In this document: positions 23,349 through 60,915 of the stretch, one piece after another
Layout of the letters: each line of letters starts with the position of its first letter
Numbering within the stretch: the first letter of the stretch is position 1
NCBI GenBank assembly: GCA_019096065.1
Contig: JAGUCH010000001.1
Span: 11,966,001 to 12,030,000, forward strand
Length of the DNA stretch: 64,000 nt
Direction: 5' to 3'
DNA from: Paracyclopina nana
Lineage: Eukaryota; Arthropoda; Copepoda; Cyclopoida; Cyclopettidae
Program-made: the position numbers and the translations under genes
The notes under the pieces: generated by a model
The model's input: the letters and a program-made list of their open reading frames with translations, nothing else
The model's database searches: none
What the model was told of the DNA's origin: nothing

Positions 23349-26174
23349 TTACTTAGAAGTTGAAATTGGGCTCCTTTTCTTCAACTTTGCAATGAAGACC
23401 TCAATCAGGAGCAAAAGAAGAGCAAATCCAGCTAAAGTGGCCAATGCAGCAAAAGCCGATAGAACGTTTGTCAAGCTCAAGCCTTCGGCTACCGCGTTAG
23501 CACATCCCTTCTCAGTGAAAGGCTGCCACTTCAGCCACATGCGGTCCATTTGCCCACTTTCCTTCATCCTCTTCAAGCTAATTAAATATATGTCACTGTT
23601 AAATTGATTCAATTAATTTCATGTCATTTACTGTGGGGACGCTTATGAGAATTGAGGGACAATCCGATTATATACTGCTGTCTACAGGTTATTACTTACA
23701 AAAAGTTGAACAAGCCTGTATAGGGCGAATTCTTTTTAAGAAGTATGACAAGAATTCCTTCGTAGACGACTTCATCCACAACCGTGAAATCGCACGAATG
23801 TCCAGTGTACAAGTTCATGGTATCAGTAGCCCAAATGAAGGCGTACTTGTCATCAGCGTACATTCTTTCGATGCCATCTGCTACGGTGGCGAGTGGCTCG
23901 TATCGTTCTTCCCATATTTTCCTATACAGAGAGCTGCCGTTCTGAAGAGCTATATTTAATCAGAGCACAAGCTGAGAGGCGTACAATTTGCTGCACTACC
24001 TGGAAAAAGTTGTCAAAAATGGTTGCAGACAAACTTCCCACCTTGAAGTCCGAGCTGAAGTAGAGCCCTCTCATGTCCTGAAATGGCATCCTGGATTTGA
24101 CAACAGCCAGAAATGAAGTTAAAGAAGCAGAGTAGGAAGCAAAAATGACAAGGCCAGACGAAAACATGGCGAAGAAAACGATTCGCATTGAAAAGCTCTC
24201 AGGTTCCAATGGAGCTCCTGGAAAAAAACAAACATTTTGAAGCATCGTAATACACAAAGATGTACTAGGATCAGCTAGTGCATGGAAGTGTATTACAGAT
24301 AAATTGGCACCTTGCTGAAAAAGGCTGGTTATTGAAACAAAGAGTGAAGCTGGCAAGTCAAAATCCTCCTTCTCTCTAACATAGCTAATGAAGGCCAAAA
24401 ATAAAGCTGAGAGCAGAATTGAGGCAGTTGTGGCCACCCACATGTCCAAAGCAAAGGGATTAACAAATGTTGACCAACCAGTATCGCCAGTCGAGGGAGT
24501 CTTGATGTACATCTGATTCCTAATAGGGAAAAAAAGCACAATAAGCAGAATTGGAGGCACATCGGTGTTACATATTCATGAGATGGCACTTTTTGAGGGT
24601 GTACTTGTCCACTTTTGAGTGGAAAGTGTCTGAAAAGAAATTAATAAATAAGTGACGTCTAGGCTTACGGTACCAGGCCCAGACTCTCAGTGAAGTCAGT
24701 CACTTTGGCTCGCTCATCATTGAGGAATAAGTCTGAGACTGCAAAATCAACCTCATCCCGTAAAATCATTCCAACCATTCCATTCCAATTGCCGTCGCTT
24801 CCTAAAGCGCCCCAGGCGCCATCTACCGATGGAATCATCCAATAAGTGAAATTCAATTCGGCTTGCAGAGCCTTCCAAATGTCGCCATAAAAACCATCGA
24901 TTTCCACATAAGTTGAGTTTGGTATAGCTTTGTTAATGACATATGGTTCATTCTGTAAGAAAAGCAAATTATCTGTATTGCTATTGAAACTTTTTTTTTT
25001 AAAAAAAGGTAGCTAATCACTGGGGCAGTTGCGCAGGCAAATCCGATTCCCGTTAAATCTTTCCGTCTCTCCCAAATGTTGACACTGTTGACAATCAGAG
25101 ACCATTCTGGCCTCCATAGCCCCCAAGGTTGATGGACAATTGGAAAATTGGGGCTTGACCTCCAAGCTTCACTGATTGTGAAATGGCTTTCATTCAATTG
25201 CTGTTTCCACAGGTACAAATTACTGTCTATCTGAAGGCTGAGGTTGGCCCCCAAAAGTTTGTCATCATGCCTCACAAACAAAGGTGGTCTATTCGCAAGC
25301 CCATTGTAAGAAACCAGTAGCTAAGAATATTATTTATTCTCAGAATTATCATTATATAGTGGTCAGAAAGAAAGAAAGGGCTAAAATACCTCTGAAAATG
25401 TCTCGATAAGTAACTCATCCAGGATGAAGTAGGCACTGTTTGATTCATCGTATGGAAAAAAGCACTTCTCATTCTGCATTCCCTTTGCTGAAGTTACCAG
25501 TTGAAATGCAATTCTGACATGAGATTTCATCAAGCCTTTGTACATTTTAAGCTTTTGCTTATTCCACCCTTAAAACGAAAAGTCAGGCATATATTGTTAT
25601 TCGATACAGCACTTTATTTGGAGTAGATTTGGATACAAAAAGAGCATTATTCTTTGCTGCTGAAGTGGAAAGCTTCCATTTTCAAGAGCTCTCACAGAGG
25701 TGAAAGGAGCATGCGAGTTCAGCCTTTAGATTTTTTGTGGTCTTCACCATGTGAAAGGATAAATGAAACGAGTAAGCAATATGAAGAGTTGCTATTACCT
25801 TCAACAGAAGAGGAATGGTGGCGTAAAAAGACCGCTGTGGAAATTGAAAAATGTTCGCACAAGTCAATCACAAAATCAATCAAATGAGCTGATTGATTTA
25901 ATGGCATCATTTTCTCATTCTTCTGGAGTTCACTGCTGGTCTCATTCATCTGAGCAAATGGTAACAAGTATTTTTCTAGGACATCTCTCCTTTGGCCGTA
26001 TCCTATTTCAGCCAAAAATAGATGGCAAAGTCCATCATCTGCCTTTTGGTTATTTCGGCACTTTTCCTCGTAATAGCGGTAAATATCACCACCATTACAT
26101 AAATATGTAAAAAGTGACAGCATTAAGTAGCCTGCCCACATTCTGACCAAGCAAAGCCAACTAACTTGTGGCAT
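23349..26174 (-). CDS. Ionotropic receptor (variant iGluR family)
   Basis: Nine minus-strand exons: 26174-25799, 25568-25390, 25320-25021, 24952-24669, 24629-24572, 24512-24311, 24217-24000, 23941-23700 and 23577-23349. They total 695 aa, and every phase fits. IRs are chemosensory ligand-gated cation channels of protostomes, derived from ionotropic glutamate receptors. A hydrophobic N-terminus (VRMWAGYLMLSLFTYLC) suits a signal peptide. WERRKDLTG and NEPYVINK begin the S1 ligand-binding half. M1 is about 423-445 (VATTASILLSALFLAFISYV), the pore loop 450-467, and M2 about 476-505 ending in the signature SYSASLTSFL (SYTANLAAFL in iGluRs). The S2 half holds YRKIWEERYEPLATV and CDFTVVDEVVYEG. M3 is about 653-683 (SAFAALATLAGFALLLLLIE). 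There is a short tail. I cannot assign the subtype. Exon 5 (58 nt) and the choice of acceptor before MYIKTPS are the least certain joins. Confidence 0.88.
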
Positions 26175-28082: not shown

Positions 28083-28091
28083 GATTTTCCC
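28083..28091. repeat. Left 9-bp target-site duplication
   Basis: GATTTTCCC directly abuts the first base of the inverted terminus (GGGAGTGACT at 28092). It is identical to 48618-48626. Confidence 0.93.
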
Positions 28092-28225
28092 GGGAGTGAC
28101 TAAATACCACAAACCAGCACAAACCAGCACAAACCTACATAATAAACCACAAACCTCTAATAACTTCACCATTTATGATCAGAACCAAACCAAATTTGAA
28201 TTGCAAGCTCCTGAGGCCAAACTGA
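28092..28225 (+). repeat. Left inverted terminus and subterminal region
   Basis: GGGAGTGACTAAATACCACA is followed by short CACAAACCAGCA repeats. ATAATAAACCACAAACC, CACCATTTATGATCAGAACC and GAATTGCAAGCTCCTGAGGC then lead into the first satellite unit. The reverse complement of 48485-48617 matches it almost base for base. Confidence 0.92.
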
Positions 28226-31200
28226 ATGGATAGCCTGCACAGTTTTTTGATCAGCTGACCTTCAGCTGTTAACTTGGCTTTTTTGACGTTTTTATAGTAA
28301 AGCAGTATTGCACTAACCACAAACCTGCCGCATTTTTCTCAGTTTTCAGCCAAAATCAGCCAAATTTGAATTGGAAGCACCTGGGGCCAAACTGAATGGA
28401 TAGCCAGCTCAGTTTTTTGATCAGCTGACTTTCAGCTGACAACTTGGCTTTTTTCACGTTTTTATAGTAAAGCAGTATAGCACTAACCACAAACCTGCCG
28501 CATTTTTCTCAGTTTTCAGCCAAAATCAGCCAAATTTGAATTGGAAGCACCTGGGGCCAAACTGAATGGATAGCCAGTTCAGTTTTTTGATCAGCTGACT
28601 TTCAGCTGACAACTTGGCTTTTTTCACGTTTTTATAGTAAAGCAGTATAGCACTAACCACAAACCTGCCGCATTTTTCTCAGTTTTCAGCCAAAATCAGC
28701 CAAAGTTGAATGGGAAGCACCTGGGGCCAAACTGAATGGATAGCCAGTTCAGTTTTTTCATCAGCTGACTTTCAGCTGACAACTTGGCTTTTTTTACGTT
28801 TTTATAGTAAAGCAGTATAGCACTAACCACAAACCTGCCGCATTTTTCTCAGTTTTCAGCCAAAATCAGCCAAATTTGAATTGGAAGCACCTGGGGCCAA
28901 ACTGAATGGATAGCCAGTTCAGTTTTTTCATCAGCTGACTTTCAGCTGACAACTTGGCTTTTTTCACGTTTTTATAGTAAAGCAGTATTGCACTAACCAC
29001 AAACCTGCCGCATTTTTCTCAGTTTTCAGCCAAAATCAGCCAAATTTGAATTGGAAGCACCTGGGGCCAAACTGAATGGATAGCCAGTTCAGTTTTTTCA
29101 TCAGCTGACTTTCAGCTGACAACTTGGCTTTTTTTACGTTTTTATAGTAAAGCAGTATTGCACTAACCACAAACCTGCCACATTTTTCTCAGTTTTCAGC
29201 CAAAATCAGCCAAATTTGAATTGGAAGCACCTGGGGCCAAACTGAATGGATAGCCAGTTCAGTTTTTTGATCAGCTGACTTTCAGCTGACAACTTGGCTT
29301 TTTTCACGTTTTTATAGTAAAGCAGTATAGCACTAACCACAAACCTGCCGCATTTTTCTCAGTTTTCAGCCAAAATCAGCCAAATTTGAATTGGAAGCAC
29401 CTGGGGCCAAACTGAATGGATAGCCAGCTCAGTTTTTTCATCAGCTGACTTTCAGCTGACAACTTGGCTTTTTTCACGTTTTTATAGTAAAGCAGTATAG
29501 CACTAACCACAAACCTGCCACATTTTTCTCAGTTTTCAGCCAAAATCAGCCAAATTTGAATTGGAAGCACCTGGGGCCAAACTGAATTGATAGCCAGCTC
29601 ATTTTTTTCATCAGCTGACTTTCAGCTGACAACTTGGCTTTTTTCACGTTTTTATAGTAATTTAGTATTGCACTAACCACAAACCTGCCGCATTTTTCTC
29701 AGTTTTCAGCCAAAATCAGCCAAATTTGAATTGGAAGCACCTGGGGCCAAACTGAATGGATAGCCAGCTCAGTTTTTTGATCAGCTGACTTTCAGCTGAC
29801 AACTTGGCTTTTTTCACGTTTTTATAGTAATTTAGTATTGCACTAACCACAAACCTGCCGCATTTTTCTCAGTTTTCAGCCAAAATCAGCCAAATTTGAA
29901 TTGGAAGCACCTGGGGCCAAACTGAATGGATAGCCAGCTCAGTTTTTTCATCAGCTGACTTTCAGCTGACAACTTGGCTTTTTTCACGTTTTTATAGTAA
30001 AGCAGTATAGCACTAACCACAAACCTGCCGCATTTTTCTCAGTTTTCAGCCAAAATCAGCCAAAGTTAAATTGGAAGCACCTGGGGCCAAACTGAATGGA
30101 CAGCCAGCTCAGTTTTTTCATCAGCTGACTTTCAGCTGACAACTTGGCTTTTTTGACGTTTTTATAGTAAAGCAGTATAGCACTAACCACAAACCTGCCG
30201 CATTTTTCTCAGTTTTCAGCCAAAATCAGCCAAATTTGAATTGGAAGCACCTGGGGCCAAACTGAATGGATAGCCAGCTCAGTTTTTTCATCAGCTGACT
30301 TTCAGCTGACAACTTGGCTTTTTTCACGTTTTTATAGTAAAGCAGTATAGCACTAACCACAAACCTGCCGCATTTTTCTCAGTTTTCAGCCAAAATCAGC
30401 CAAATTTGAATTGGAAGCACCTGGGGCCAAACTGAATGGATAGCCAGTTCAGTTTTTTGATCAGCTGACTTTCAGCTGACAACTTGGCTTTTTTTACGTT
30501 TTTATAGTAAAGCAGTATAGCACTAACCACAAACCTGCCACATTTTTCTCAGTTTTCAGCCAAAATCAGCCAAATTTGAATTGGAAGCACCCGGGGCCAA
30601 ACTGAATGGATAGCCAGTTCAGTTTTTTCATCAGCTGACTTTCAGCTGACAACTTGGCTTTTTTCACGTTTTTATAGTAAAGCAGTATTGCACTAACCAC
30701 AAACCTGCCGCATTTTTCTCAGTTTTCAGCCAAAATCAGCCAAATTTGAATTGGAAGCACCTGGGGCCAAACTGAATGGATAGCCAGCTCAGTTTTTTGA
30801 TCAGCTGACTTTCAGCTGACAACTTGGCTTTTTTCACGTTTTTATAGTAAAGCAGTATTGCACTAACCACAAACCTGCCGCATTTTTCTCAGTTTTCAGC
30901 CAAAATCAGCCAAATTTGAATTGGAAGCACCTGGGGCCAAACTGAATGGATAGCCAGTTCAGTTTTTTGATCAGCTGACTTTCAGCTGACAACTTGGCTT
31001 TTTTCACGTTTTTATAGTAAAGCAGTATAGCACTAACCACAAACCTGCCGCATTTTTCTCAGTTTTCAGCCAAAATCAGCCAAAGTTGAATTGGAAGCAC
31101 CTGGGGCCAAACTGAATGGATAGCCAGCTCAGTTTTTTCATCAGCTGACTTTCAGCTGACAACTTGGCTTTTTTGACGTTTTTATAGTAAAGCAGTATTG

Positions 31201-31860
31201 CACTAACCACAAACCTGCCGCATTTTTCTCAGTTTTCAGCCAAAATCAGCCAAAGTTGAATTGGAAGCACCTGGGGCCAAACTGAATGGATAGCCAGCTC
31301 AGTTTTTTCATCAGCTGACTTTCAGCTGACAACTTGGCTTTTTTGACGTTTTTATAGTAAAGCAGTATTGCACTAACCACAAACCTGCCGCATTTTTCTC
31401 AGTTTTCAGCCAAAATCAGCCAAAGTTGAATTGGAAGCACCTGGGGCCAAACTGAATGGATAGCCAGCTCAGTTTTTTCATCAGCTGACTTTCAGCTGAC
31501 AACTTGGCTTTTTTCACGTTTTTATAGTAATTTAGTATTGCACTAACCACAAACCTGCCGCATTTTTCTCAGTTTTCAGCCAAAATCAGCCAAATTTGAA
31601 TTGGAAGCACCTGGGGCCAAACTGAATGGATAGCCAGCTCAGTTTTTTGATCAGCTGACTTTCAGCTGACAACTTGGCTTTTTTCACGTTTTTATAGTAA
31701 AGCAGTATAGCACTAACCACAAACCTGCCGCATTTTTCTCAGTTTTCAGCCAAAATCAGCCAAACTTGATTTGGAAGCACCTGGGGCCAAACTGAATGGA
31801 TAGCCAGCTCAGTTTTTTCATCAGCTGACCTTCAGCTGTTAACTTGGCATTTTTGACGTT
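28226..31860 (+). repeat. Left 170-bp satellite block (about 21-22 units)
   Basis: The unit boundary marker CTGGGGCCAA recurs at 28381, 28551 and 28721, a period of 170 bp, up to about 31790. Units are highly similar, differing at a few recurrent positions: TTGATC/TTCATC, AGTATAG/AGTATTG, and a TTTAGTATT variant. Each unit has two CAGCTG palindromes about 10 bp apart. No open frame of note. The first and last units are diverged. Confidence 0.93.
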
Positions 31861-31882
31861 AGTAAAGCAGTATAGCACTAAC

Positions 31883-32795
31883 CACAAACCTCTGGCATTT
31901 GCTCAGTTTTCAGCCAATTTCAGCCAAAATGATATCACAGCTACCCGAATGAAAACTCATTTCGACTAATCATCATTTTTCAAAATCAGCTGACTCTCAG
32001 CAGATTTTTGAGCCAAACTTGGTCGTAAGTACTATCACTGCAGTAGTAAAAATGTCCAGCACAAACCTCTGGCATTTGCTCAGTTTTCAGCCAATTTCCG
32101 CCAAAATGATATCACAGCTACCCGAATGAAAACTCAGTTTGGCTAAGCATCATTTTTCAAAATCAGCTGACTCTCAGCAGATTTTTGAGCCAAACTTGGT
32201 CGTATGTACTGCTACTGTAGCAATAAAACAGTTCAGCACAAACCTCTGGCATTTGCTCAGTTTTCAGCCAATTTCCGCCAAAATGATATCACAGCTACCC
32301 AAATGAAAACTCAGTTTGGCTAAGCATCATTTTTCAAAATCAGCTGACTCTCAGCAGATTTTTGAGCCAAACTTGGTTGTATGAACTGCTACTACTGTAA
32401 CAATAAAAATGTCCAGCACAAACCTCTGGCATTTGCTCAGTTTTCAGCCAATTTCAGCCAAAATGATATCACAGCTACCCGAATGAAAACTCAGTTTGGC
32501 TAAGCATCATTTTCCAAAATCAGCTGACTCTCAGCATATTTTTGAGCCAAACTAGGTCGTATGTACTGCTACTACTATAACAATAAAACAGTTCAGCACA
32601 AACCTCTGGCATTTGCTCAGTTTTCAGCCAATTTCAGCCAAAATGATATCACAGCTACCCGAATGAAAACTCAGTTTGGCTAAGCATCATTTTCCAAAAT
32701 CAGCTGACTCTCAGCAGATTTTTGAGCCAAACTAGGTCGTATGTACTGCTACTGTAACAATAAAAATGTCCAGCACAAACCTCTGACATTTGCTC
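31883..32795 (+). repeat. Left 177-180-bp satellite block (5 units)
   Basis: CACAAACCTCTGGCATTTGC starts at 31883, 32060, 32237, 32417 and 32597, and a diverged copy starts at 32774. The periods are 177, 177, 180, 180 and 177 bp. It is related to the 170-bp unit (shared CTCAGTTTTCAGCCAA), but contains its own ATGATATCACAGCTACCC block. Confidence 0.9.
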
Positions 32796-33118
32796 AGTTT
32801 TTTCATCAGCTGACTTTCAGCTGACAACTTGGCTTTTTTCACGTTTTTATAGTAATTTAGTATTGCACTAACCACAAACCTGCCGCATTTTTCTCAGTTT
32901 TCAGCCAAAATCAGCCAAATTTGAATTGGAAGCACCTGGGGCCAAACTGAATGGATAGCCAGTTCAGTTTTTTGATCAGCTGACTTTCAGCTGACAACTT
33001 GGCTTTTTTCACGTTTTTATAGTAAAGCAGTATAGCACTAACCACAAACCTGCCACATTTTTCTCAGTTTTCAGCCAAAATCAGCCAAATTTGAATTGGA
33101 AGCACCTGGGGCCAAACT
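32796..33118 (+). repeat. Two inner 170-bp units of the left arm
   Basis: After the 177-180-bp block the array switches back to about two units of the 170-bp family, then stops abruptly at GGCCAAACTT. The right arm has no counterpart at this position, so the mirror symmetry is broken here. Confidence 0.88.
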
Positions 33119-34480
33119 TGCGTGAAGTTGAGCGTATGCTAGAGAATGATGCGAGTGGCGTATTAGTTTGAGCTACCAGATTTGGCTTTTTTCCCAACAA
33201 ATTTGCCCTCATTTGAATCTTTCTATAAGTGACAGATTTTTTTCTAATCAAAAAGAGTAGCTCTGCCCGGTTATTACCACAGAATTATATTTATTATGTC
33301 AGAAGCCCTTCCATAGCATAGTTAGACTCCGTATTTAGAGAATTTCAGCTGGTATTTCACCTTACATTCTAGATCATCTTGGGCTTTCTATCTTTTTCAG
33401 CAAGAGATATTGGCTGAGGTTGATGAATTCATTGATGAAGATGACAAATGAACACCATTGACAATTATGACAACACAAGAGCAGTAGATTTTCATGAGGG
33501 GAAAACGTTCTTTATCCTCAGTGCTAAAAAACAGACTAAAATTTTCACTGCCCTAAAGAAGTAGAACATCTTTTCATTTTTATTGGGTGTACTGGTAAAA
33601 GGCACTTTTTGGGAAAGGCACCTACATAAATTGGCACTAATATAAAAGGCACCATACAATATAAGCACTTAAATAAAAGGCGCTATGTAATATTATTGGC
33701 ACCCCTTGAATAAGGCACCCATCTGAAAATTATTTGATCGCTTTGGATAAAAAAAATCAGTGTTCGCAACTTTGGACAACTTTTGAAAGTGCAAGTATGA
33801 AACCTCATTTTTGCACATTCATTGCAGCTAAAAATAGCTTGCCATATACTTTTTTGCATCCGTTTTCATTTTGACATTTTGCCAAAATGAAACGATTAAA
33901 GCAAACTGATGCTCAAGAAACAGAAAATGCCCCTTTTTCGGGCTAAAAATCATGTGATATTGGTCACTTACCTTGACACAGAGCGAACACCTCAGCAAGC
34001 TATTTGCCCTCCTCCTAAAATACCATGTCACCACCTTGCGGAAATTTGAGTCTCTAATAAAGCTCATTTGTCTTGCTTGCTATTAGTTGTTGCAGTGCCT
34101 TTTATGAATGGTGCCTTTTATTGCAGTGCCAATTTATATAGGTGCCTTTCCCAAAAAGTGCCTTTTACCAGCAGAGCCTTTTTATTCCAACAATAGTTAG
34201 GTTATTTAATACATTATTTAATTTGATTTTGGAAATTTTTACTATCTGATAATTAACTCCACAAAATTTAATTCCAGTTGAAGCAATAATCCCCTTACTA
34301 ACACAAAATTTTCCAAAAAAGTTTAGCTGTTATTGAGAGCAAGATACTCTTATCAAAATCTACTGCTCTCAACACAACAATTAGCATTTAATAAATATGA
34401 GAATATGAAAGAATTACAGTGAGAATAAAGGAACATAACAATAAATATACAGTCTGGGCAGTGGGCAGATATCCAGTGCA
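33119..34480. other. Core of the giant foldback element
   Basis: Unique-looking sequence between the two arms. It begins with a coding-like stretch (LREVERMLENDASGVL, then a stop) and has a second at 33401-33451. The latter is a polypyrimidine-AG acceptor followed by QEILAEVDEFIDEDDK and a stop. Between them, 33298-33390 is a copy of the dispersed repeat also found at 240-345. A separate foldback insert occupies 33591-34172. No frame long enough for a transposase exists. The scraps resemble captured exon ends, but I cannot name the source gene. Confidence 0.6.
33591..34172. mobile_element. Foldback MITE inside the core
   Basis: Inverted ends of about 62 bp: CTGGTAAAAGGCACTTTTTG at 33591 and its complement ending at 34172. 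Both continue through GGGAAAGGCACCTA-AATTGGCAC with few differences. The ends are made of repeated AAAAGGCAC motifs. Interior about 450 bp, with no credible ORF. No clear target duplication. It was inserted into, or carried with, the core of the larger element. Confidence 0.82.
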
Positions 34481-35530
34481 CAGTACTTACGACCAAGTTT
34501 GGCTCAAAAATCTGCTGAGAGTCAGCTGATTTTGAAAAATGATGTTCAGCCGAACTGAGTTTTCATTCAGGTAGCTGTGATATTATTTTGGCTGAAAATG
34601 GCTGAAAACTGAGCAAATGCCAGAGGTTTGTGCTGGACATTTTTATTGTTACAGTAGTAGCAGTACATACGACCAAGTATAACTCATAAATCAGCTGAAA
34701 GTCAGCTGATTTTGGAAATTGATGCTTAGTCAAACTGAGTAGTCATTCGGGTAGCTTTGATATCATTTTGGCTGAAATTGGCTGAAAACTGAGCAAATGC
34801 CAGAGGTTTGTGCTGAACTGTTTTATTGCTACAGTAGCAGTACATACGACCAAGTTTGGCTCAAAAATCACCTGAGAGTCAGCTGATTTTGAAAAATGAT
34901 GCTTAGCCAAACTGAGTTTTCATTTGGGTAGCTGTGATATCATTTTGGCTGAAATTGGCTGAAAACTGAGCAAATGCCAGAGGTTTGTGCTGGACATTTT
35001 TATTGTTACAGTAGTAGCAGTACATACGATCAAGTTTGGCTCAAAAATCTGCTGAGAGTCAGCTGATTTTGGAAAATGATGTTTAGCCGAACTGGGTTTT
35101 CATTTGGGTAGCTGTGATATCATTTTGGCTGAAATTGGCTGAAAACTGAGCAAATGCCAGAGGTTTGTGCTGAACTGTTTTATTGTTATAGTAGTAGCAG
35201 TACATACGACCTAGTTTGGCTCAAAAATATGCTGAGAGTCAGCTGATTTTGGAAAATGATATTTAGCCGAACTGGGTTTTCATTCGGGTAGCTGTGATAT
35301 CATTTTGGCTGAAATTGGCTGAAAACTGAGCAAATGCCAGAGGTTTGTGCTGGACATTTATATTACTGCAGTGCTAATACATACGACCAATTATAACTCA
35401 TAAATCATCTGAAAGTCAGCTGATTTTGGAAAATGATGTTCAGCCGAACTGGGTTTTCATTCAGGTAGCTGTGATATTATTTTGGCTGAAAATGGCTGAA
35501 AACTGAGCAAATGCCAGAGGTTTGTGGTTA
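34481..35530 (-). repeat. Right 177-180-bp satellite block, inverted
   Basis: The inverse of the left 177-180-bp family. CAGAGGTTTGTGCTG recurs at about 34621, 34801, 34978, 35158 and 35338, and ends at about 35515 with a switch into the 170-bp family. About six units, some diverged (near 34680 and 35390). Confidence 0.88.
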
Positions 35531-38500
35531 GTGCTATACTGCTTTACTAACGTCAAAAATGCCAAGTTAACAGCTGAAGGTCAGCTGATGAAAAAACTGA
35601 GCTGGCTATCCATTCAGTTTGGCCCCAGGTGCTTCCAAATCAAGTTTGGCTGATTTTGGCTGAAAACTGAGAAAAATGCGGCAGGTTTGTGGTTAGTGCT
35701 ATACTGCTTTACTATAAAAACGTGAAAAAAGCCAAGTTGTCAGCTGAAAGTCAGCTGATCAAAAAACTGAACTGGCTATCCATTCAGTTTGGCCCCAGGT
35801 GCTTCCAATTCAAATTTGGCTGATTTTGGCTGAAAACTGAGAAAAATGCGGCAGGTTTGTGGTTAGTGCAATACTAAATTACTATAAAAACGTGAAAAAA
35901 GCCAAGTTGTCAGCTGAAAGTCAGCTGATGAAAAAACTGAGCTGGCTATCCATTCAGTTTGGCCCAAGGTGCTTCCAATTCAACTTTGGCTGATTTTGGC
36001 TGAAAACTGAGAAAAATGCGGCAGGTTTGTGGTTAGTGCAATACTGCTTTACTATAAAAACGTAAAAAAAGCCAAGTTGTCAGCTGAAAGTCAGCTGATG
36101 AAAAAACTGAGCTGGCTATCCATTCAGTTTGGCCCCAGGTGCTTCCAATTCAACTTTGGCTGATTTTGGCTGAAAACTGAGAAAAATGCGGCAGGTTTGT
36201 GGTTAGTGCAATACTGCTTTACTATAAAAACGTGAAAAAAGCCAAGTTGTCAGCTGAAAGTCAGCTGATGAAAAAACTGAGCTGGCTATCCATTCAGTTT
36301 GGCCCCAGGTGCTTCCAATTCAACTTTGGCTGATTTTGGCTGAAAACTGAGAAAAATGCGGCAGGTTTGTGGTTAGTGCTATACTGCTTTACTATAAAAA
36401 CGTAAAAAAAGCCAAGTTGTCAGCTGAAAGTCAGCTGATCAAAAAACTGAGCTGGCTATCCATTCAGTTTGGCCCCAGGTGCTTCCAATTCAAATTTGGC
36501 TGATTTTGGCTGAAAACTGAGAAAAATGCGGCAGGTTTGTGGTTAGTGCAATACTGCTTTACTATAAAAACGTGAAAAAAGCCAAGTTGTCAGCTGAAAG
36601 TCAGCTGATGAAAAAACTGAACTGGCTATCCATTCAGTTTGGCCCCAGGTGCTTCCAATTCAAATTTGGCTGATTTTGGCTGAAAACTGAGAAAAATGCG
36701 GCAGGTTTGTGGTTAGTGCAATACTGCTTTACTATAAAAACGTGAAAAAAGCCAAGTTGTCAGCTGAAAGTCAGCTGATGAAAAAACTGAACTGGCTATC
36801 CATTCAGTTTGGCCCCAGGTGCTTCCAATTCAAATTTGGCTGATTTTGGCTGAAAACTGAGAAAAATGCGGCAGGTTTGTGGTTAGTGCTATACTGCTTT
36901 ACTATAAAAACGTAAAAAAAGCCAAGTTGTCAGCTGAAAGTCAGCTGATCAAAAAACTGAGCTGGCTATCCATTCAGTTTGGCCCCAGGTGCTTCCAATT
37001 CAAATTTGGCTGATTTTGGCTGAAAACTGAGAAAAATGCGGCAGGTTTGTGGTTAGTGCAATACTGCTTTACTATAAAAACGTCAAAAAAGCCAAGTTGT
37101 CAGCTGAAAGTCAGCTGATGAAAAAACTGAGCTGGCTATCCATTCAGTTTGGCCCCAGGTGCTTCCAATTTAACTTTGGCTGATTTTGGCTGAAAACTGA
37201 GAAAAATGCGGCAGGTTTGTGGTTAGTGCTATACTGCTTTACTATAAAAACGTCAAAAGCTGTTGTCAGCTGAAAGTCAGCTGATGAAAAACTGAGCTGG
37301 CTGTCCATTCAGTTTGGCCTCAGGTGCTTCCAATTCAACTTTGGCTGATTTTGGCTGAAAACTGAGAAAAATGCGGCAGGTTTGTGGTTAGTGCTATACT
37401 GCTTTACTATAAAAACGTCAAAAAAGCCAAGTTGACAGCTGAAAGTCAGCTGATGAAAAAACTGAACTGGCTATCCATTCAGTTTGGCCTCAGGTGCTTC
37501 CAATTCAACTTTGGCTGATTTTGGCTGAAAACTGAGAAAAATGCGGCAGGTTTGTGGTTAGTGCTATACTGCTCTAATATATAAACATTGTAAAGCCAAG
37601 TTGACCGCTGAAAGTCAGCTGATCAAAAAACTGAGCTAGCTATCCATTCAGTTTGGCCTCAGGTGCTTTAAATTCAAATTTGGCTGATTTTGGCTGAAAA
37701 CTGAGAAAAATGCGAGAGGTTTGTGGTTTGTGTTATACTACATTAGTATAAAAACAATGAAAATGCCAAGTTGACAGCTGAAAGTCAGCTGATCAAAAAA
37801 CTGAGCTAGCTATCCATTCAGTTTGGCCCCAGGTGCTTCCAATTCAAATTTGGCTGATTTTGGCTGAAAACTGAGAAAAATGCGGCAGGTTTGTGGTTAG
37901 TGCTATACTGCTTTACTATAAAAACGTGAAAAAAGCCAAGTTGTCAGCTGAAAGTCAGCTGATGAAAAAACTGAGCTGGCTATCCATTCAGTTTGGTCCC
38001 AGGTGCTTCCAATTCAACTTTGGCTGATTTTGGCTGAAAACTGAGAAAAATGCGGCAGGTTTGTGGTTATTGCTATACTGCTCTAGTATAAAAACCTGGA
38101 AAATGCCAAGTTAACAGCTGAAGGTCAGCTGATGAAAAAACTGAGCTGGCTATCCATTCAGTTTGGCCCCAGGTGCTTCCAATTCAAGTTTGGCTGATTT
38201 TGGCTGAAAACTGAGAAAAATGCGGCAGGTTTGTGGTTAGTGCTATACTGCTTTACTATAAAAACGTCAAAAAAGCCAAGTTGACAGCTGAAAGTCAGCT
38301 GATGAAAAAACTGAACTGGCTATCCATTCAGTTTGGCCTCAGGTGCTTCCAATTCAAATTTGGCTGATTTTGGCTGAAAACTGAGAAAAATGCGGCAGGT
38401 TTGTGGTTAGTGCTATACTGCTTTACTATAAAAACGTCAAAAAAGCCAAGTTGACAGCTGAAAGTCAGCTGATGAAAAAACTGAACTGGCTATCCATTCA

Positions 38501-41500
38501 GTTTGGCCTCAGGTGCTTCCAATTCAAATTTGGCTGATTTTGGCTGAAAACTGAGAAAAATGTGGCAGGTTTGTGGTTAGTGCTATACTGCTTTACTATA
38601 AAAACGTCAAAAAAGCCAAGTTGTCAGCTGAAAGTCAGCTGATGAAAAAACTGAGCTGGCTATCCATTCAGTTTGGCCCCAGGTGCTTCCAATTCAACTT
38701 TGGCTGATTTTGGCTGAAAACTGAGAAAAATGCGGCAGGTTTGTGGTTAGTGCTATACTGCTTTACTATAAAAACGTCAAAAAAGCCAAGTTGACAGCTG
38801 AAAGTCAGCTGATGAAAAAACTGAACTGGCTATCCATTCAGTTTGGCCCCAGGTGCTTCCAATTCAACTTTGGCTGATTTTGGCTGAAAACTGAGAAAAA
38901 TGCGGCAGGTTTGTGGTTAGTGCTATACTGCTTTACTATAAAAACGTCAAAAAAGCCAAGTTGACAGCTGAAAGTCAGCTGATGAAAAAACTGAACTGGC
39001 TATCCATTCAGTTTGGCCTCAGGTGCTTCCAATTCAAATTTGGCTGATTTTGGCTGAAAACTGAGAAAAATGTGGCAGGTTTGTGGTTAGTGCTATACTG
39101 CTTTACTATAAAAACGTCAAAAAAGCCAAGTTGACAGCTGAAAGTCAGCTGATGAAAAAACTGAACTGGCTATCCATTCAGTTTGGCCCCAGGTGCTTCC
39201 AATTCAACTTTGGCTGATTTTGGCTGAAAACTGAGAAAAATGCGGCAGGTTTGTGGTTAGTGCTATACTGCTTTACTATAAAAACGTCAAAAAAGCCAAG
39301 TTGACAGCTGAAAGTCAGCTGATGAAAAAACTGAACTGGCTATCCATTCAGTTTGGCCTCAGGTGCTTCCAATTCAAATTTGGCTGATTTTGGCTGAAAA
39401 CTGAGAAAAATGCGGCAGGTTTGTGGTTAGTGCTATACTGCTTTACTATAAAAACGTCAAAAAAGCCAAGTTGTCAGCTGAAAGTCAGCTGATGAAAAAA
39501 CTGAGCTGGCTATCCATTCAGTTTGGCCCCAGGTGCTTCCAATTCAAATTTGGCTGATTTTGGCTGAAAACTGAGAAAAATGCGGCAGGTTTGTGGTTAG
39601 TGCTATACTGCTTTACTATAAAAACGTCAAAAAAGCCAAGTTGTCAGCTGAAAGTCAGCTGATGAAAAAACTGAGCTGGCTATCCATTCAGTTTGGCCCC
39701 AGGTGCTTCCAATTCAACTTTGGCTGATTTTGGCTGAAAACTGAGAAAAATGCGGCAGGTTTGTGGTTAGTGCTATACTGCTTTACTATAAAAACGTCAA
39801 AAAAGCCAAGTTGTCAGCTGAAAGTCAGCTGATGAAAAAACTGAACTGGCTATCCATTCAGTTTGGCCCCAGGTGCTTCCAATTCAACTTTGGCTGATTT
39901 TGGCTGAAAACTGAGAAAAATGCGGCAGGTTTGTGGTTATTGCTATACTGCTCTAGTATAAAAACCTGGAAAATGCCAAGTTAACAGCTGAAGGTCAGCT
40001 GATGAAAAAACTGAACTGGCTATCCATTCAGTTTGGCCTCAGGTGCTTCCAATTCAAATTTGGCTGATTTTGGCTGAAAACTGAGAAAAATGCGGCAGGT
40101 TTGTGGTTAGTGCTATACTGCTTTACTATAAAAACGTCAAAAAAGCCAAGTTGACAGCTGAAAGTCAGCTGATGAAATAACTGAGCTGGCTATCCATTCA
40201 GTTTGGCCCCAGGTGCTTCCAATTCAACTTTGGCTGATTTTGGCTGAAAACTGAGAAAAATGCGGCAGGTTTGTGGTTATTGCTATACTGCTCTAGTATA
40301 AAAACCTGGAAAATGCCAAGTTGTCAGCTGAAAGTCAGCTGATGAAAAAACTGAGCTGGCTATCCATTCAGTTTGGCCCCAGGTGCTTCCAATTCAACTT
40401 TGGCTGATTTTGGCTGAAAACTGAGAAAAATGCGGCAGGTTTGTGGTTAGTGCTATACTGCTTTACTATAAAAACGTCAAAAAAGCCAAGTTGTCAGCTG
40501 AAAGTCAGCTGATCAAAAAACTGAGCAGGCTATCCATTCAGTTTGGCCTCAGGAGCTTCAATACAACTTTGGCTGATTTTGGCTGAAAACTGAGAAAAAT
40601 GCGAGAGGTTTGTGGTTTGTGTTATACTACATTAGTATAAAAACAATGAAAATGCCAAGTTGACAGCTGAAAGTCAGCTGATCAAAAAACTGAGCTAGCT
40701 ATCCATTCAGTTTGGCCTCAGGTGCTTCCAATTCAACTTTGGCTGATTTTGGCTGAAAACTGAGAAAAATGCGGCAGGTTTGTGGTTTGTGTTATACTAC
40801 ATTAGTATAAAAACAATGAAAATGCCAAGTTGACAGCTGAAAGTCAGCTGATGAAAAAACTGAACTGGCTATCCATTCAGTTTGGCCCCAGGTGCTTCCA
40901 ATTCAACTTTGGCTGATTTTGGCTGAAAACTGAGAAAAATGCAGCAGGTTTGTGGTTAGTGCTATACTGCTTTACTATAAAAACGTAAAAAAAGCCAAGT
41001 TGACAGCTGAAAGTCAGCTGATCAAAAAACTGAGCTAGCTATCCATTCAGTTTGGCCTCAGGTGCTTCCAATTCAACTTTGGCTGATTTTGGCTGAAAAC
41101 TGAGAAAAATGCGGCAGGTTTGTGGTTAGTGCTATACTGCTTTACTATAAAAACGTAAAAAAAGCCAAGTTGTCAGCTGAAAGTCAGCTGATCAAAAAAC
41201 TGAACTGGCTATCCATTCAGTTTGGTCCCAGGTGCTTCCAATTCAAATTTGGCTGATTTTGGCTGAAAACTGAGAAAAATGTGGCAGGTTTGTGGTTAGT
41301 GCAATACTGCTTTACTATAAAAACGTAAAAAAGCCAAGTTGTCAGCTGAAAGTCAGCTGATCAAAAAACTGAACTGGCTATCCATTCAGTTTGGCCCCAG
41401 GTGCTTCCAATTCAAATTTGGCTGATTTTGGCTGAAAACTGAGAAAAATGCGGCAGGTTTGTGGTTAGTGCAATACTGCTTTACTATAAAAACGTGAAAA

Positions 41501-44500
41501 AAGCCAAGTTGTCAGCTGAAAGTCAGCTGATGAAAAAACTGAACTGGCTATCCATTCAGTTTGGCCCCGGGTGCTTCCAATTCAAATTTGGCTGATTTTG
41601 GCTGAAAACTGAGAAAAATGTGGCAGGTTTGTGGTTAGTGCTATACTGCTTTACTATAAAAACGTAAAAAAAGCCAAGTTGTCAGCTGAAAGTCAGCTGA
41701 TCAAAAAACTGAACTGGCTATCCATTCAGTTTGGCCCCAGGTGCTTCCAATTCAAATTTGGCTGATTTTGGCTGAAAACTGAGAAAAATGCGGCAGGTTT
41801 GTGGTTAGTGCTATACTGCTTTACTATAAAAACAATGAAAATGCCAAGTTGACAGCTGAAAGTCAGCTGATCAAAAAACTGAGCTAGCTATCCATTCAGT
41901 TTGGCCTCAGGTGCTTCCAATTCAACTTTGGCTGATTTTGGCTGAAAACTGAGAAAAATGCGAGAGGTTTGTGGTTTGTGTTATACTACATTAGTATAAA
42001 AACAATGAAAATGCCAAGTTGACAGCTGAAAGTCAGCTGATCAAAAAACTGAGCTAGCTATCCATTCAGTTTGGCCTCAGGTGCTTCCAATTCAACTTTG
42101 GCTGATTTTGGCTGAAAACTGAGAAAAATGCGAGAGGTTTGTGGTTTGTGTTATACTACATTAGTATAAAAACAATGAAAATGCCAAGTTGACAGCTGAA
42201 AGTCAGCTGATCAAAAAACTGAGCTAGCTATCCATTCAGTTTGGCCTCAGGTGCGTCAAATTCAAATTTGGCTGATTTTGGCTGAAAACTGAGAAAAATG
42301 CGAGAGGTTTGTGGTTTGTGTTATACTACATTAGTATAAAAACAATGAAAATGCCAAGTTGACAGCTGAAAGTCAGCTGATCAAAAAACTGAGCTAGCTA
42401 TCCATTCAGTTTGGCCTCAGGTGCTTCCAATTCAACTTTGGCTGATTTTGGCTGAAAACTGAGAAAAATGCGGCAGGTTTGTGGTTAGTGCTATACTGCT
42501 TTACTATAAAAACGTCAAAAAAGCCAAGTTGACCGCTGAAGGTCAGCTGATGAAAAAACTGAGCTGGCTATCCATTCAGTTTGGCCCCAGGTGCTTCCAA
42601 TTCAAATTTGGCTGATTTTGGCTGAAAACTGAGAAAAATGCGGCAGGTTTGTGGTTAGTGCTATACTGCTTTACTATAAAAACGTGAAAAAAGCCAAGTT
42701 GTCAGCTGAAAGTCAGCTGATGAAAAAACTGAGCTGGCTATCCATTCAGTTTGGCCCCAGGTGCTTCCAATTCAACTTTGGCTGATTTTGGCTGAAAACT
42801 GAGAAAAATGCGGCAGGTTTGTGGTTATTGCTATACTGCTCTAGTATAAAAACCTGGAAAATGCCAAGTTAACAGCTGAAGGTCAGCTGATGAAAAAACT
42901 GAGCTGGCTATCCATTCAGTTTGGCCCCAGGTGCTTCCAATTCAAATTTGGCTGATTTTGGCTGAAAACTGAGAAAAATGCGGCAGGTTTGTGGTTAGTG
43001 CTATACTGCTTTACTATAAAAACGTCAAAAAAGCCAAGTTGTCAGCTGAAAGTCAGCTGATGAAAAAACTGAACTGGCTATCCATTCAGTTTGGCCCCAG
43101 GTGCTTCCAATTCAAATTTGGCTGATTTTGGCTGAAAACTGAGAAAAATGCGGCAGGTTTGTGGTTAGTGCTATACTGCTTTACTATAAAAACGTCAAAA
43201 GCCAAGTTGACAGCTGAAAGTCAGCTGATGAAAAACTGAACTGGCTATCCATTCAGTTTGGCCTCAGGTGCTTCAATTCAAATTTGGCTGATTTTGGCTG
43301 AAAACTGAGAAAAATGTGGCAGGTTTGTGGTTAGTGCTATACTGCTTTACTATAAAAACGTCAAAGCCAAGTTGTCAGCTGAAAGTCAGCTGATGAAAAA
43401 ACTGAGCTGGCTATCCATTCAGTTTGGCCCCAGGTGCTTCCAATTCAACTTTGGCTGATTTTGGCTGAAAACTGAGAAAAATGCGGCAGGTTTGTGGTTA
43501 GTGCTATACTGCTTTACTATAAAAACGTCAAAAAAGCCAAGTTGTCAGCTGAAAGTCAGCTGATGAAAAAACTGAACTGGCTATCCATTCAGTTTGGCCC
43601 CAGGTGCTTCCAATTCAACTTTGGCTGATTTTGGCTGAAAACTGAGAAAAATGCGGCAGGTTTGTGGTTAGTGCAATACTACTTTACTATAAAAACAATG
43701 AAAATGCCAAGTTGACAGCTGAAAGTCAGCTGATCAAAAAACTGAGCTAGCTATCCATTCAGTTTGGCCTCAGGTGCGTCAAATTCAAATTTGGCTGATT
43801 TTGGCTGAAAACTGAGAAAAATGCGGCAGGTTTGTGGTTAGTGCAATACTGCTTTACTATAAAAACGTGAAAAAAGCCAAGTTGTCAGCTGAAAGTCAGC
43901 TGATGAAAAAACTGAACTGGCTATCCATTCAGTTTGGCCCCAGGTGCTTCCAATTCAACTTTGGCTGATTTTGGCTGAAAACTGAGAAAAATGCGGCAGG
44001 TTTGTGGTTTGTGCTATACTGCTTTACTATAAAAACGTCAAAAAAGCCAAGTTGTCAGCTGAAAGTCAGCTGATGAAAAAACTGAACTGGCTATCCATTC
44101 AGTTTGGCCCCAGGTGCTTCCAATTCAAATTTGGCTGATTTTGGCTGAAAAACTAGAAAAATGCGGCAGGTTTGTGGTTAGTGCTATACTGCTTTACTAT
44201 AAAAACGTCAAAAAAAGTTGACAGCTGAAAGTCAGCTGATGAAAAAACTGAGCTGGCTATCCATTCAGTTTGGCCCCAGGTGCTTCCAATTCAAATTTGG
44301 CTGATTTTGGCTGAAAACTGAGAAAAATGCGGCAGGTTTGTGGTTAGTGCTATACTGCTTTACTATAAAAACGTCAAAAAAGCCAAGTTGTCAGCTGAAA
44401 GTCAGCTGATGAAAAAACTGAGCTGGCTATCCATTCAGTTTGGCCCCAGGTGCTTCCAATTCAACTTTGGCTGATTTTGGCTGAAAACTGAGAAAAATGC

Positions 44501-47500
44501 GACAGGTTTGTGGTTAGTGCAATACTGCTTTACTATAAAAACGTCAAAAAAGCCAAGTTGTCAGCTGAAAGTCAGCTGATGAAAAAACTGAACTGGCTAT
44601 CCATTCAGTTTGGCCCCAGGTGCTTCCAATTCAACTTTGGCTGATTTTGGCTGAAAACTGAGAAAAATGCGGCAGGTTTGTGGTTATTGCTATACTGCTC
44701 TAGTATAAAAACCTGGAAAATGCCAAGTTAACAGCTGAAGGTCAGCTGATGAAAAAACTGAACTGGCTATCCATTCAGTTTGGCCTCAGGTGCTTCCAAT
44801 TCAAATTTGGCTGATTTTGGCTGAAAACTGAGAAAAATGCGGCAGGTTTGTGGTTAGTGCTATACTGCTTTACTATAAAAACGTCAAAAAAGCCAAGTTG
44901 ACAGCTGAAAGTCAGCTGATGAAAAAACTGAGCTGGCTATCCATTCAGTTTGGCCCCAGGTGCTTCCAATTCAACTTTGGCTGATTTTGGCTGAAAACTG
45001 AGAAAAATGCGACAGGTTTGTGGTTATTGTTATACTACATTAGTATAAAAACAATGAAAATGCCAAGTTGTCAGCTGAAAGTCAGCTGATGAAAAAACTG
45101 AGCTGGCTGTCCATTCAGTTTGGCCCCAGGTGCTTCCAATTTAACTTTGGCTGATTTTGGCTGAAAACTGAGAAAAATGCGGCAGGTTTGTGGTTAGTGC
45201 AATACTGCTTAACTATAAAAACGTGAAAAAAGCCAAGTTGACAGCTGAAAGTCAGCTGATCAAAAAACTGAGCTAGCTATCCATTCAGTTTGGCCTCAGG
45301 TGCTTCCAATTCAACTTTGGCTGATTTTGGCTGAAAACTGAGAAAAATGCGAGAGGTTTGTGGTTAGTGCTATACTGCTCTAATATATAAACATTGTAAA
45401 GCCAAGTTGACCGCTGAAAGTCAGCTGATCAAAAAACTGAGCTAGCTATCCATTCAGTTTGGCCTCAGGTGCTTTAAATTCAAATTTGGCTGATTTTGGC
45501 TGAAAACTGAGAAAAATGCGAGAGGTTTGTGGTTTGTGTTATACTACATTAGTATAAAAACGTCAAAAGCTAAGTTGACAGCTGAAAGTCAGCTGATGAA
45601 AAAACTGAACTGGCTATCCATTCAGTTTGGCCCCAGGTGCTTCAATTCAACTTTGGCTGATTTTGGCTGAAAACTGAGAAAATGCAGCAGGTTTGTGGTT
45701 AGTGCTATACTGCTATAATATATAAACATGGTAAAGCCAAGTTGACCGCTGAAAGTCAGCTGATCAAAAAACTGAGCTAGCTATCCATTCAGTTTGGCCT
45801 CAGGTGCTTTAAATTCAAATTTGGCTGATTTTGGCTGAAAACTGAGAAAAATGCGGCAGGTTTGTGGTTAGTGCTATACTGCTTTACTATAAAAACGTCA
45901 AAAAAGCCAAGTTGACAGCTGAAAGTCAGCTGATGAAATAACTGAGCTGGCTATCCATTCAGTTTGGCCCCAGGTGCTTCCAATTCAAATTTGGCTGATT
46001 TTGGCTGAAAACTGAGAAAAATGCGGCAGGTTTGTGGTTAGTGCTATACTGCTTTACTATAAAAACGTGAAAAAAGCCAAGTTGTCAGCTGAAAGTCAGC
46101 TGATGAAAAAACTGAGCTGGCTATCCATTCAGTTTGGCCCCAGGTGCTTCCAATTCAACTTTGGCTGATTTTGGCTGAAAACTGAGAAAAATGCGGCAGG
46201 TTTGTGGTTAGTGCTATACTGCTTTACTATAAAAACGTCAAAAGCCAAAGTTGACAGCTGAAAGTCAGCTGATGAAAAACTGAACTGGCTATCCATTCAG
46301 TTTGGCCCCAGGTGCTTCCAATTCAACTTTGGCTGATTTTGGCTGGAAAACTGAGAAAATGCGGCAGGTTTGTGGTTATTGCTATACTGCTCTAGTATAA
46401 AAACCTGGAAAATGCCAAGTTAACAGCTGAAGGTCAGCTGATGAAAAAACTGAGCTGGCTATCCATTCAGTTTGGCCCCAGGTGCTTCCAATTCAAATTT
46501 GGCTGATTTTGGCTGAAAACTGAGAAAAATGCGGCAGGTTTGTGGTTTGTGTTATACTACATTAGTATAAAAACGTCAAAAAAGTTGCTGACAGCTGAAA
46601 GTCAGCTGATGAAATAACTGAGCTGGCTATCCATTCAGTTTGGCCCCAGGTGCTTCAATTCAACTTTGGCTGATTTTGGCTGAAAACTGAGAAAAATGCG
46701 GCAGGTTTGTGGTTATTGCTATACTGCTCTAGTATAAAAACCTGGAAAATGCCAAGTTGTCAGCTGAAAGTCAGCTGATGAAAAAACTGAAGCTGGCTAT
46801 CCATTCAGTTTTGGCCCCAGGTGCTTCCAATTTAACTTTGGCTGATTTTGGCTGAAAACTGAGAAAAATGCGGCAGGTTTGTGGTTTGTGTTATACTACA
46901 TTAGTATAAAAACAATGAAAATGCCAAGTTGACAGCTGAAAGTCAGCTGATCAAAAAACTGAGCTAGCTATCCATTCAGTTTGGCCTCAGGTGCTTCCAA
47001 TTCAACTTTGGCTGATTTTGGCTGAAAACTGAGAAAAATGCGGAAGGTTTGTGGTTAGTGCTATACTGCTTTACTATAAAAACGTCAAAAAAGCCAAGTG
47101 GTCAGCTGAAAGTCAGCTGGATGAAAAACTGAGCTGGCTATCCATTCAGTTTGGCCCCAGGTGCTTCCAATTCAACTTTGGCTGATTTTGGCTGAAAACT
47201 GAGAAAAATGCGGCAGGTTTGTGGTTATTGCTATACTGCTCTAGTATAAAAACGTGGAAAATGCCAAGTTAACAGCTGAAGGTCAGCTGATCAAAAAACT
47301 GAGCTGGCTGTCCATTCAGTTTGGCCTCAGGTGCTTCCAATTCAAATTTGGCTGATTTTGGCTGAAAACTGAGAAAAATGCGGCAGGTTTGTGGTTAGTG
47401 CTATACTGCTTTACTATAAAAACGTCAAAAAAGCCAAGTTGACAGCTGAAAGTCAGCTGATCAAAAAACTGAGCTGGCTATCCATTCAGTTTGGCCCCAG

Positions 47501-48484
47501 GTGCTTCCAATTCAAATTTGGCTGATTTTGGCTGAAAACTGAGAAAAATGCGGCAGGTTTGTGGTTAGTGCTATACTGCTTTACTATAAAAACGTCAAAA
47601 AAACCAAGTTGTCAGCTGATGAAAAAACTGAGCTGGCTATCCATTCAGTTTGGCCCCAGGTGCTTCCAATTCAACTTTGGCTGATTTTGGCTGAAAACTG
47701 AGAAAAATGCGACAGGTTTGTGGTTAGTGCAATACTGTTTTACTATAAAAACGTGAAAAAAGCCAAGTTGTCAGCTGATGAAAAAACTGAGCTGGCTATC
47801 CATTCAGTTTGGCCCCAGGTACTTCCAATTCAAATTTGGCTGATTTTGGCTGAAAACTGAGAAAAATGCGGCAGGTTTGTGGTTAGTGCTATACTGCTTT
47901 ACTATAAAAACGTCAAAAAAGCCAAGTTGTCAGCTGAAAGTCAGCTGATGAAAAAACTGAGCTGGCTATCCATTCAGTTTGGCCCCAGGTGCTTCCAATT
48001 CAAATTTGGCTGATTTTGGCTGAAAACTGAGAAAAATGCGGCAGGTTTGTGGTTAGTGCTATACTGCTTTACTATAAAAACGTGAAAAAAGCCAAGTTGT
48101 CAGCTGAAAGTCAGCTGATGAAAAAACTGAGCTGGCTATCCATTCAGTTTGGCCCCAGGTGCTTCCAATTCAACTTTGGCTGATTTTGGCTGAAAACTGA
48201 GAAAAATGCGGCAGGTTTGTGGTTAGTGCTATACTGCTTTACTATAAAAACGTGAAAAAAGCCAAGTTGTCAGCTGAAAGTCAGCTGATGAAAAAACTGA
48301 GCTGGCTATCCATTCAGTTTGGCCCCAGGTGCTTCCAATTCAACTTTGGCTGATTTTGGCTGAAAACTGAGAAAAATGCGGCAGGTTTGTGGTTATTGCT
48401 ATACTGCTCTAGTATAAAAACCTGGAAAATGCCAAGTTAACAGCTGAAGGTCAGCTGATGAAAAAACTGAGCTGGCTATCCATT
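35531..48484 (-). repeat. Right 170-bp satellite block (about 76 units), inverted
   Basis: GCAGGTTTGT recurs every 170 bp (35681, 35851 and so on to 48381), in the opposite polarity to the left block. Small indels appear in places. Several unit variants alternate in runs: ACGTCAAAAAAGCC, ACGTGAAAAAAGCC, AACCTGGAAAATGCC, and a CATTAGTATAAAAACAATG type clustered near 40.6-42.4 and 45.0-46.9 kb. This implies amplification of multi-unit blocks. No gene inside. Confidence 0.93.
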
Positions 48485-48617
48485 CAGTTTGGCCTCAGGA
48501 GCTTGCAAATCAAATTTGGTTTGATTCTGATCATAAATGGTGAAGTTATTAGAGGTTTGTGGTTTATTATGTAGGTTTGTGCTGGTTTGTGCTGGTTTGT
48601 GGTATTTAGTCACTCCC
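48485..48617 (-). repeat. Right inverted terminus and subterminal region
   Basis: Mirror of 28092-28225, ending GGTATTTAGTCACTCCC at 48617. Confidence 0.92.
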
Positions 48618-48626
48618 GATTTTCCC
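48618..48626. repeat. Right 9-bp target-site duplication
   Basis: GATTTTCCC immediately after the right terminus, identical to 28083-28091. Loss of the element and one copy would give a continuous empty site. Confidence 0.93.
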
Positions 48627-60514: not shown

Positions 60515-60915
60515 GAGGCTTCAATTTGCAGTCTAAAGCAGCCTCGATTTGTATTCTTGAGCAGCCTCAATTTAGTCTAGAGAAACCTCAATGCATAGTC
60601 TTGAGCTGTCTCATTTCGTATTCTTGAGCAGCAGCCTCAATTATCAGTCTTGAGCAGCCTCAATTATCAGTCTTGAGCTGCCACAATTTGCACTCTTGAG
60701 CGGCCACATTTCATAGTCTTGAGCAGCCTCAATTTGTAGTTGTGAGCAGCCACAATTTGTAGGCTTGAACAGCCTCAATTTCAGTCTTGAGCGGCCTCAA
60801 TTTCAGTCTTGAGCGGCCTCATTTTGTAGGTCTTGAGCGGCTTCAATTTTGGTCAAGAGGGCCGGGCTTCAATATGTAGCCTTGAGAAGCAGCTGCCTCA
60901 ATTCGTAGTCTTGTT
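60515..60915. repeat. Degenerate minisatellite, GAGCAGCCTCAATTT family
   Basis: About sixteen imperfect units of roughly 22-26 bp, each with the motif TCTTGAGC(A/G)GCCTCAATTT and variants (CCACAATTT, GGCTTCAATTT). Unit length varies, so it is an old array. Short open frames cross it but vary with the unit length. Confidence 0.8.

Follow-up and report, generated by a model that had tools for sequence, protein, structure and literature searches.

Tetris, a foldback transposon of D. virilis and D. americana, is a published case in which an element of this type gave rise to satellite arrays (PMC4079207). Tetris is non-autonomous, its inverted ends contain a terminal domain and tandem repeats with a unit of ~220 bp, and its target-site duplications measure 8-10 bp. 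The repeats also occur in arrays of kilobase size with up to 66 copies, and fluorescence in situ hybridization on fibers (fiber-FISH) revealed long arrays bordered by a terminal domain on each side. Galileo, a member of the P superfamily, has foldback-like ends with tandem units of ~210 bp in its F group (PMC3573991), and in D. buzzatii extra tandem-repeat sites are bound by the THAP domain of the transposase (PMC3688188). In the Mutator/Foldback family Tm1 of Meloidogyne, the duplications are 9 bp long and the tandem-repeat ends are preceded by outer motifs of 7 bp; the family comprises members resembling miniature inverted-repeat transposable elements (MITEs) as well as a Mutator-like element (MULE) transposase (PMC3169594). 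Comparable duplications are described for the MULE groups Rehavkus (9 bp) and Phantom (8-10 bp), with minisatellite in some members (PMC6446971). Here, a 64,000-nucleotide window of the copepod Paracyclopina nana (contig JAGUCH010000001.1, positions 11,966,001 to 12,030,000) was analyzed. It contains a 20,526-bp block of tandem repeats (positions 28092-48617 of the window), which is a single transposon insertion and not dispersed satellite DNA.

The element is of the Tetris-like kind, unusually large and well bounded, rather than a new kind, and it is a large, clean example of the published foldback-to-satellite principle, not a new idea. Its unusual features are its scale, its intact boundaries, and the near-confinement of its repeat to one insertion. 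Structurally complete copies of Tetris have inverted ends of at most 1,735 bp, compared with 5.0 and 14.1 kb for the arms of the element, whose duplication is intact. The Tetris repeat is present on 69 contigs (610 copies), whereas the 170-bp unit of the element is found at two loci, with 97 of 100 matches in one of them. As judged from the published description of Tetris, the element differs further in having two unit classes. Tetris shares its ends with a MITE, DAIBAM (PMC4079207), and the end of the element resembles that of a MITE family in the same genome. Tm1 differs by its 13-15-bp tandem units and by an asymmetric outer 7 bp, which is found in the MITE family here but not in the element (PMC3169594). 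Galileo differs by its 7-bp duplications, a maximum of three units, and its P-type transposase (PMC3573991). Rehavkus and Phantom are defined by their transposase gene, and on present evidence the element is not assignable to either. The first-pass annotation of the window, made from the sequence alone, had held that known Foldback elements have short units only, which is contradicted by the unit lengths of Tetris and Galileo F. No further case of this kind was recognized among the hits listed from the open-access literature, judged by titles and the beginnings of abstracts. How satellites begin is an open question, and an intact insertion at a single location, with arms of satellite scale, would permit the growth of an array to be compared between individuals relative to one fixed insertion event.

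Boundaries and Architecture of the Element

We consider it likely that the block is a non-autonomous Foldback-type transposon, probably moved by a MULE enzyme, whose arms were lengthened unequally, with most of the right arm probably arising after insertion. The 9-bp sequence GATTTTCCC directly abuts both ends of the block, in agreement with the perfect direct repeats noted at first pass (Table 1). The inverted ends begin with GGGAGTGACTAAATACC at 28092, and the reverse complement of this 17-mer finishes at 48617; it occurs once per strand in the window. Between the two ends of the element the first 93 bp are identical, and 2 differences are found over 120 bp. Additional occurrences of GATTTTCCC in the window are located at 57554 (+) and 4319 (-), one per strand. 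Because the inverted ends fix the boundaries, the arithmetic chance of an exact 9-mer match at these positions is still ~4^-9, roughly 4e-6. The left terminal domain contains ACTAAATACC at nucleotides 8-17 and several CACAAACC motifs. The arms are very unequal (left, 28092-33118, 5,027 bp; right, 34481-48617, 14,137 bp) and enclose a core of 1,362 bp (33119-34480). Long inverted ends built of tandem repeats and a target-site duplication of ~9 bp, both characteristic of foldback elements, are thus present. With the 9-bp duplication, the identical inverted ends, and the opposite polarity of the arms, the proposal of one transposition unit with foldback architecture is supported.

Tandem arrays were called by Tandem Repeats Finder. 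The left arm contains the motif CACAAACC 33 times and the right arm, read from its outer end inward, 96 times; neither arm has it in the opposite orientation, and it is absent from the remainder of the window. For a 31-nt unit pattern, the 23 forward matches in the window fall exclusively in the left arm and the 74 reverse matches exclusively in the right arm. The arms are therefore of opposite, uniform polarity. A 16-nt unit anchor, sought in a single orientation for each arm, matched 28 times in the left arm and 81 times in the right arm at up to 3 mismatches, and 28 and 79 times at up to 2; at up to 1 mismatch it was absent from the window flanks on both strands. The 170-bp and 177-180-bp units of opposite polarity around a 1.36-kb core, as first annotated, were all recovered, with the amendment that the left arm reverts to 170-bp units beside the core.

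The anchors delimited 27 intervals in the left arm, 80 in the right arm, and 3 on contig C4, 110 in total, of which 108 were aligned; two composite intervals of 277 and 338 bp were left out. Units of the 170-bp class have a mean identity of 0.968 when compared inside the left arm, 0.936 inside the right arm, and 0.947 between the arms. The 177-180-bp units have a mean identity of 0.903 among themselves and of 0.54 to the 170-bp class, and the two classes are related (local score of 62 versus a shuffle maximum of 37, n = 200). Matches of 12-13 bp connect the terminal domain with each unit class and are weak alone, as 10 and 1 of 1000 shuffles reach them. The homogeneity of the arrays would also suit an ordinary satellite array that is inverted internally and flanked by a coincidental 9-bp repeat, and a unit length of 170-180 bp is typical for satellites. 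Such an array is scarcely credible in view of the exact 9-mer at both boundaries, the identical terminal domains outside the arrays, and the absence of any other array of the 170-bp unit from the assembly. Long, near-identical arrays can be assembled with a wrong copy number; the arms might have been falsely joined or an array inflated. Matching ends together with a target duplication are not the expected product of a false join, however; many units differ from each other, and the nested composition of the core is unique, which renders an assembly artifact very improbable.

Mirrored Units beside the Core

Left units 1-21 and right units 1-75 were compared in a run test for rare variants with 300 permutations. 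Nine units beside the core are arranged as mirror images, left units 13-21 corresponding in order to right units 67-75. With rare-variant weighting, the mirrored run scored 68.0, above all 300 permutations (maximum 65.0); the next-best left-right run scored 14.8, and none came near 68.0. The mirrored run implies that the arms were mirror images in this region or that exchange keeps them so. The outer parts of the arms appear to have turned over independently. A block duplication in the right arm at lag 28 had good raw identity and was rejected, as it was not significant with rare-variant weighting.

Tentatively, and with confidence somewhat short of even, the locus can be read as a sequence-resolved birth of a satellite, in which nearly all copies of a nucleosome-length repeat in this assembly lie in one insertion with intact edges and target duplication, and the nine mirrored units record the founding arms. 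If this is true, the growth of a satellite would be traceable from within a single transposition event.

Distribution in the Assembly

The 31-nt unit pattern was scanned over the 92-Mb assembly with up to 3 mismatches. The resulting counts cover assembled arrays and would miss units that deviate at more than 3 positions of the 31-nt stretch. Genome-wide, 100 matches were obtained, 97 in the element and 3 on contig C4; the reversed control of the pattern had no match in the assembly. The 170-bp unit is nearly confined to one insertion in the assembly. The terminal 24-mer, at up to 3 mismatches, was found three times, twice at the element and once on C4. Pattern counts were preferred over the DNA search, which undercounts arrays (the right-arm query omitted its own position). 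By DNA search alone, the 177-180-bp class was found in this block and, weakly, on contig C2.

The assembly holds one complete copy of the element plus the solo arm on C4. The latter is one-ended, ~780 bp long, with four unit anchors, and its terminal 93 bp are identical. Neither a second end nor a second ATTATAAGC was present in C4 134300-150000 (15.7 kb, ~9.4 kb inward of the arm). The search for further copies suggested at first pass yielded this copy, but scoring of its flanks for duplications is uninformative because the only other copy is a one-ended fragment. The C4 solo arm neither supports nor refutes transposition. A query of 281 nt of joined flanks matched the two flanks alone, and no paralogous empty site was found in the assembly.

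The C4 fragment shows that arms carrying four or more unit anchors are present at another site, and the ends and target duplication of the element are intact. Both observations are compatible with an element that landed near its present size of 20.5 kb after its arrays had grown at an earlier site. This scenario is unlikely, although it deserves weight: the assembly contains no other long copy, the arms are very unequal, transposition efficiency usually drops with length (PMC3688188), and growth cannot be dated against insertion from this sequence.

At C2:10681895-10683499 (10.68 Mb), pieces with 74% and 87% similarity to the 177-180-bp unit flank, on both sides, a MITE of the ACTAAATACC family described below. 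The locus is possibly an old relative of the element and provides a lead.

A MITE Family with a Similar End

A MITE family with an end similar to that of the element offers a concrete handle on the transposase. The outer 7 bp of its two ends are CGTATAT and GGTACAT, respectively, with ACTAAATACCGCACACAAACGC next to them. A scan allowing up to 3 mismatches gave 212 end matches, and the family is present on contigs C1-C9. Nine copies, chosen from plus/minus pairs among the end matches listed, were read and have a size of ~700-1,750 bp. Exact 9-bp duplications flank seven of the nine (6/7 in one set and 1/2 in the other). In the two longer copies, the terminal motif recurs within the ends as 2-3 tandem units of 17 bp. 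ACTAAATACC sits 7 nt from the end in both the MITE family and the element, and the two ends match at 13 of 17 positions, a level attained by 8 of 20,000 dinucleotide shuffles. The occurrence of an in-genome MITE family sharing the 9-bp duplications and the ACTAAATACC offset is a new observation; the five papers listed by a literature search on the motif ACTAAATACC were unrelated.

MULE Genes and the Mobilizing Enzyme

The MULE transposase domain was detected at six loci in the genome, five of them above the Pfam cut-off, and translated frames matched the domain in 5/5 cases. With the C5 MULE frame as protein query, 24 matches were obtained, nine of which have internal stops; the inspection of ends covered the first six loci. 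The C6 protein has a C-terminal RING finger above the cut-off, and the RING match of C5 lies just below it. Inverted repeats of short tandem units adjoin three MULE genes, on C6 (~2.03 Mb), C2 (~6.67 Mb), and C5 (~6.36 Mb). They are clear at the C6 gene, with 29/63-bp units on one side and 25-54-bp units on the other, and weaker at the C2 gene (~15-bp units, 77% inverted match) and the C5 gene (~25-bp units, detected on a single side, with an inverted match of 66%).

The left end (28092-28300), inner units (34481-34900), and the core were used as queries against ~20 kb around each of the six MULE loci. An autonomous MULE relative with the same ends, as envisaged in the first-pass annotation, was not found in these regions. 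A search within 6 kb of the six MULE hits found no exact 11-bp inverted repeats accompanied by duplications of 8-10 bp (alternatively, 9 bp at one mismatch). A match of the core to the C3 MULE locus (E 1e-14) was discarded, as it is due only to the ends of the core's outer MITE. The duplication of the element falls within the 8-11 bp given for MULEs (PMC6446971). A transposase, either inside the element or in a relative with the same ends, was not detected in the element and at the six MULE loci, nor was a transposase with a PHD finger, as in Rehavkus; the element has no transposase-sized frame.

Our best guess is a MULE-type enzyme, because most MITE copies read have 9-bp duplications, the MITE end is similar, and MULE genes are present in the genome. 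Mutator-type mobilization is thus supported indirectly, and the element would work like the MULE superfamily without being a proven member. Foldback structures occur across superfamilies (PMC4079207; PMC3688188), and the search for transposase genes was targeted at MULEs; a P-superfamily enzyme of the Galileo type, or another transposase, might therefore have moved the element. Given that Galileo duplications are 7 bp long (PMC3573991), compared with 9 bp in the element and most MITE copies read, we regard a non-MULE enzyme as quite improbable.

Several observations weigh against a MULE-moved foldback with unequally lengthened arms. At the six MULE loci, no transposase was found with the element's ends (the best E value was 0.019 with the left end and 0.14 with the inner units). 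Two of the nine MITE copies lack an exact duplication, one having a single mismatch and the other no duplication at all. The comparison of the element with the MITE family was made post hoc, after ACTAAATACC had been noticed, and the similarity fades past the first 17 bp, with local scores that 3 and 12 of 1000 shuffles attain. The two ends of the MITE have different outer 7 bp, whereas in the element they are the same. Within the arms, the mean identity along the left-right diagonal is mildly unusual (reached by 25/500 permutations), and block duplications are not significant, being reached by 130/300 permutations in the right arm and 273/300 in the left arm, so that the mode of expansion cannot be read from the sequence.

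For the favored origin as a MULE-moved foldback, the following course is proposed. Staggered cuts of 9 bp by a transposase, most likely of a MULE, would have inserted the non-autonomous Foldback-type element, and the same enzyme may also have mobilized the abundant MITE family with the similar end. The CACAAACC-type motif, repeated in the terminal domain and present about once per unit, could by analogy with Galileo act as an extra transposase-binding site. Arrays arising in this way might grow through unequal exchange. Recombination or replication slippage among units would then have lengthened the arms unequally. Most of the 14-kb right arm probably grew after insertion, which is the least certain step.

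Nested Mobile DNA in the Core

The core is largely nested mobile DNA (Table 1). For the dispersed repeat at its left side, similarity stops at the same base in five of six copies aligned, and the sixth is unaligned there. The outer MITE is ~290 bp long once the inner insertion is subtracted. The inner MITE has an 8-bp duplication, TTTTTATT, and 96-99% identity to three other near-full copies. Among 30 stop-to-stop frames of at least 120 codons in the window, one overlaps the element, spanning its right end; at this threshold, the core has no long reading frame. By eye, the stretch 33383-33478 (33387-33477) resembles a splice acceptor followed by a short terminal exon, as in a captured gene; this reading was not adopted, and a genome search with the stretch found itself only.

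Table 1. Positions of the element's features in the 64-kb window
Feature	Position	Strand	Basis
Left 9-bp target-site duplication, GATTTTCCC	28083..28091	+	Exact sequence match
Left terminal domain, 93 bp, equal to right end	28092..28184	+	End comparison
Left array, ~22 units of 170 bp	28190..31928	+	Tandem Repeats Finder, anchors
Left inner array, ~5 units of 177-180 bp	31883..32801	+	Tandem Repeats Finder, anchors
About two more 170-bp units adjoining the core, left arm only	32794..33118	+	Tandem Repeats Finder
Core, 264-bp end piece of dispersed repeat	33119..33382	+	86-95% identity to other copies listed
Core, inserted MITE, inverted ends AGAGCAGTAGATTTT, CAACACA (7 bp) on both sides	33478..34369		
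Core, second MITE of 594 bp inside the first, with imperfect inverted ends of 92 bp	33585..34178		
Right inner array, ~6 units of 177-180 bp, inverted versus left arm	34481..35526	-	Tandem Repeats Finder, anchors
Right array, ~75-77 units of 170 bp	35481..48519	-	Tandem Repeats Finder, anchors
Right terminal domain, 93 bp	48525..48617	-	End comparison
Right 9-bp target-site duplication, GATTTTCCC	48618..48626	+	Exact sequence match

Genomic Surroundings

The element sits between a Lig_chan frame (23922-24575, minus strand) and ABC transporter frames (51801-53683, plus strand). Domain matches in the window were obtained for six of nine frames and comprise Lig_chan, ABC transporter, tektin, LRR, and PX; together with telomere-type repeats on C3, they point to an arthropod host. 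Two further tandem arrays are located at 60521-60849 and 62073-62316 of the window, with 23-bp and 54/108-bp units. On C3, at ~11.54 Mb, long arrays of TTAGG, the usual arthropod telomere repeat, are found at a distance of roughly 28-36 kb from the end of the contig; other sequence separates these arrays and also lies beyond them.

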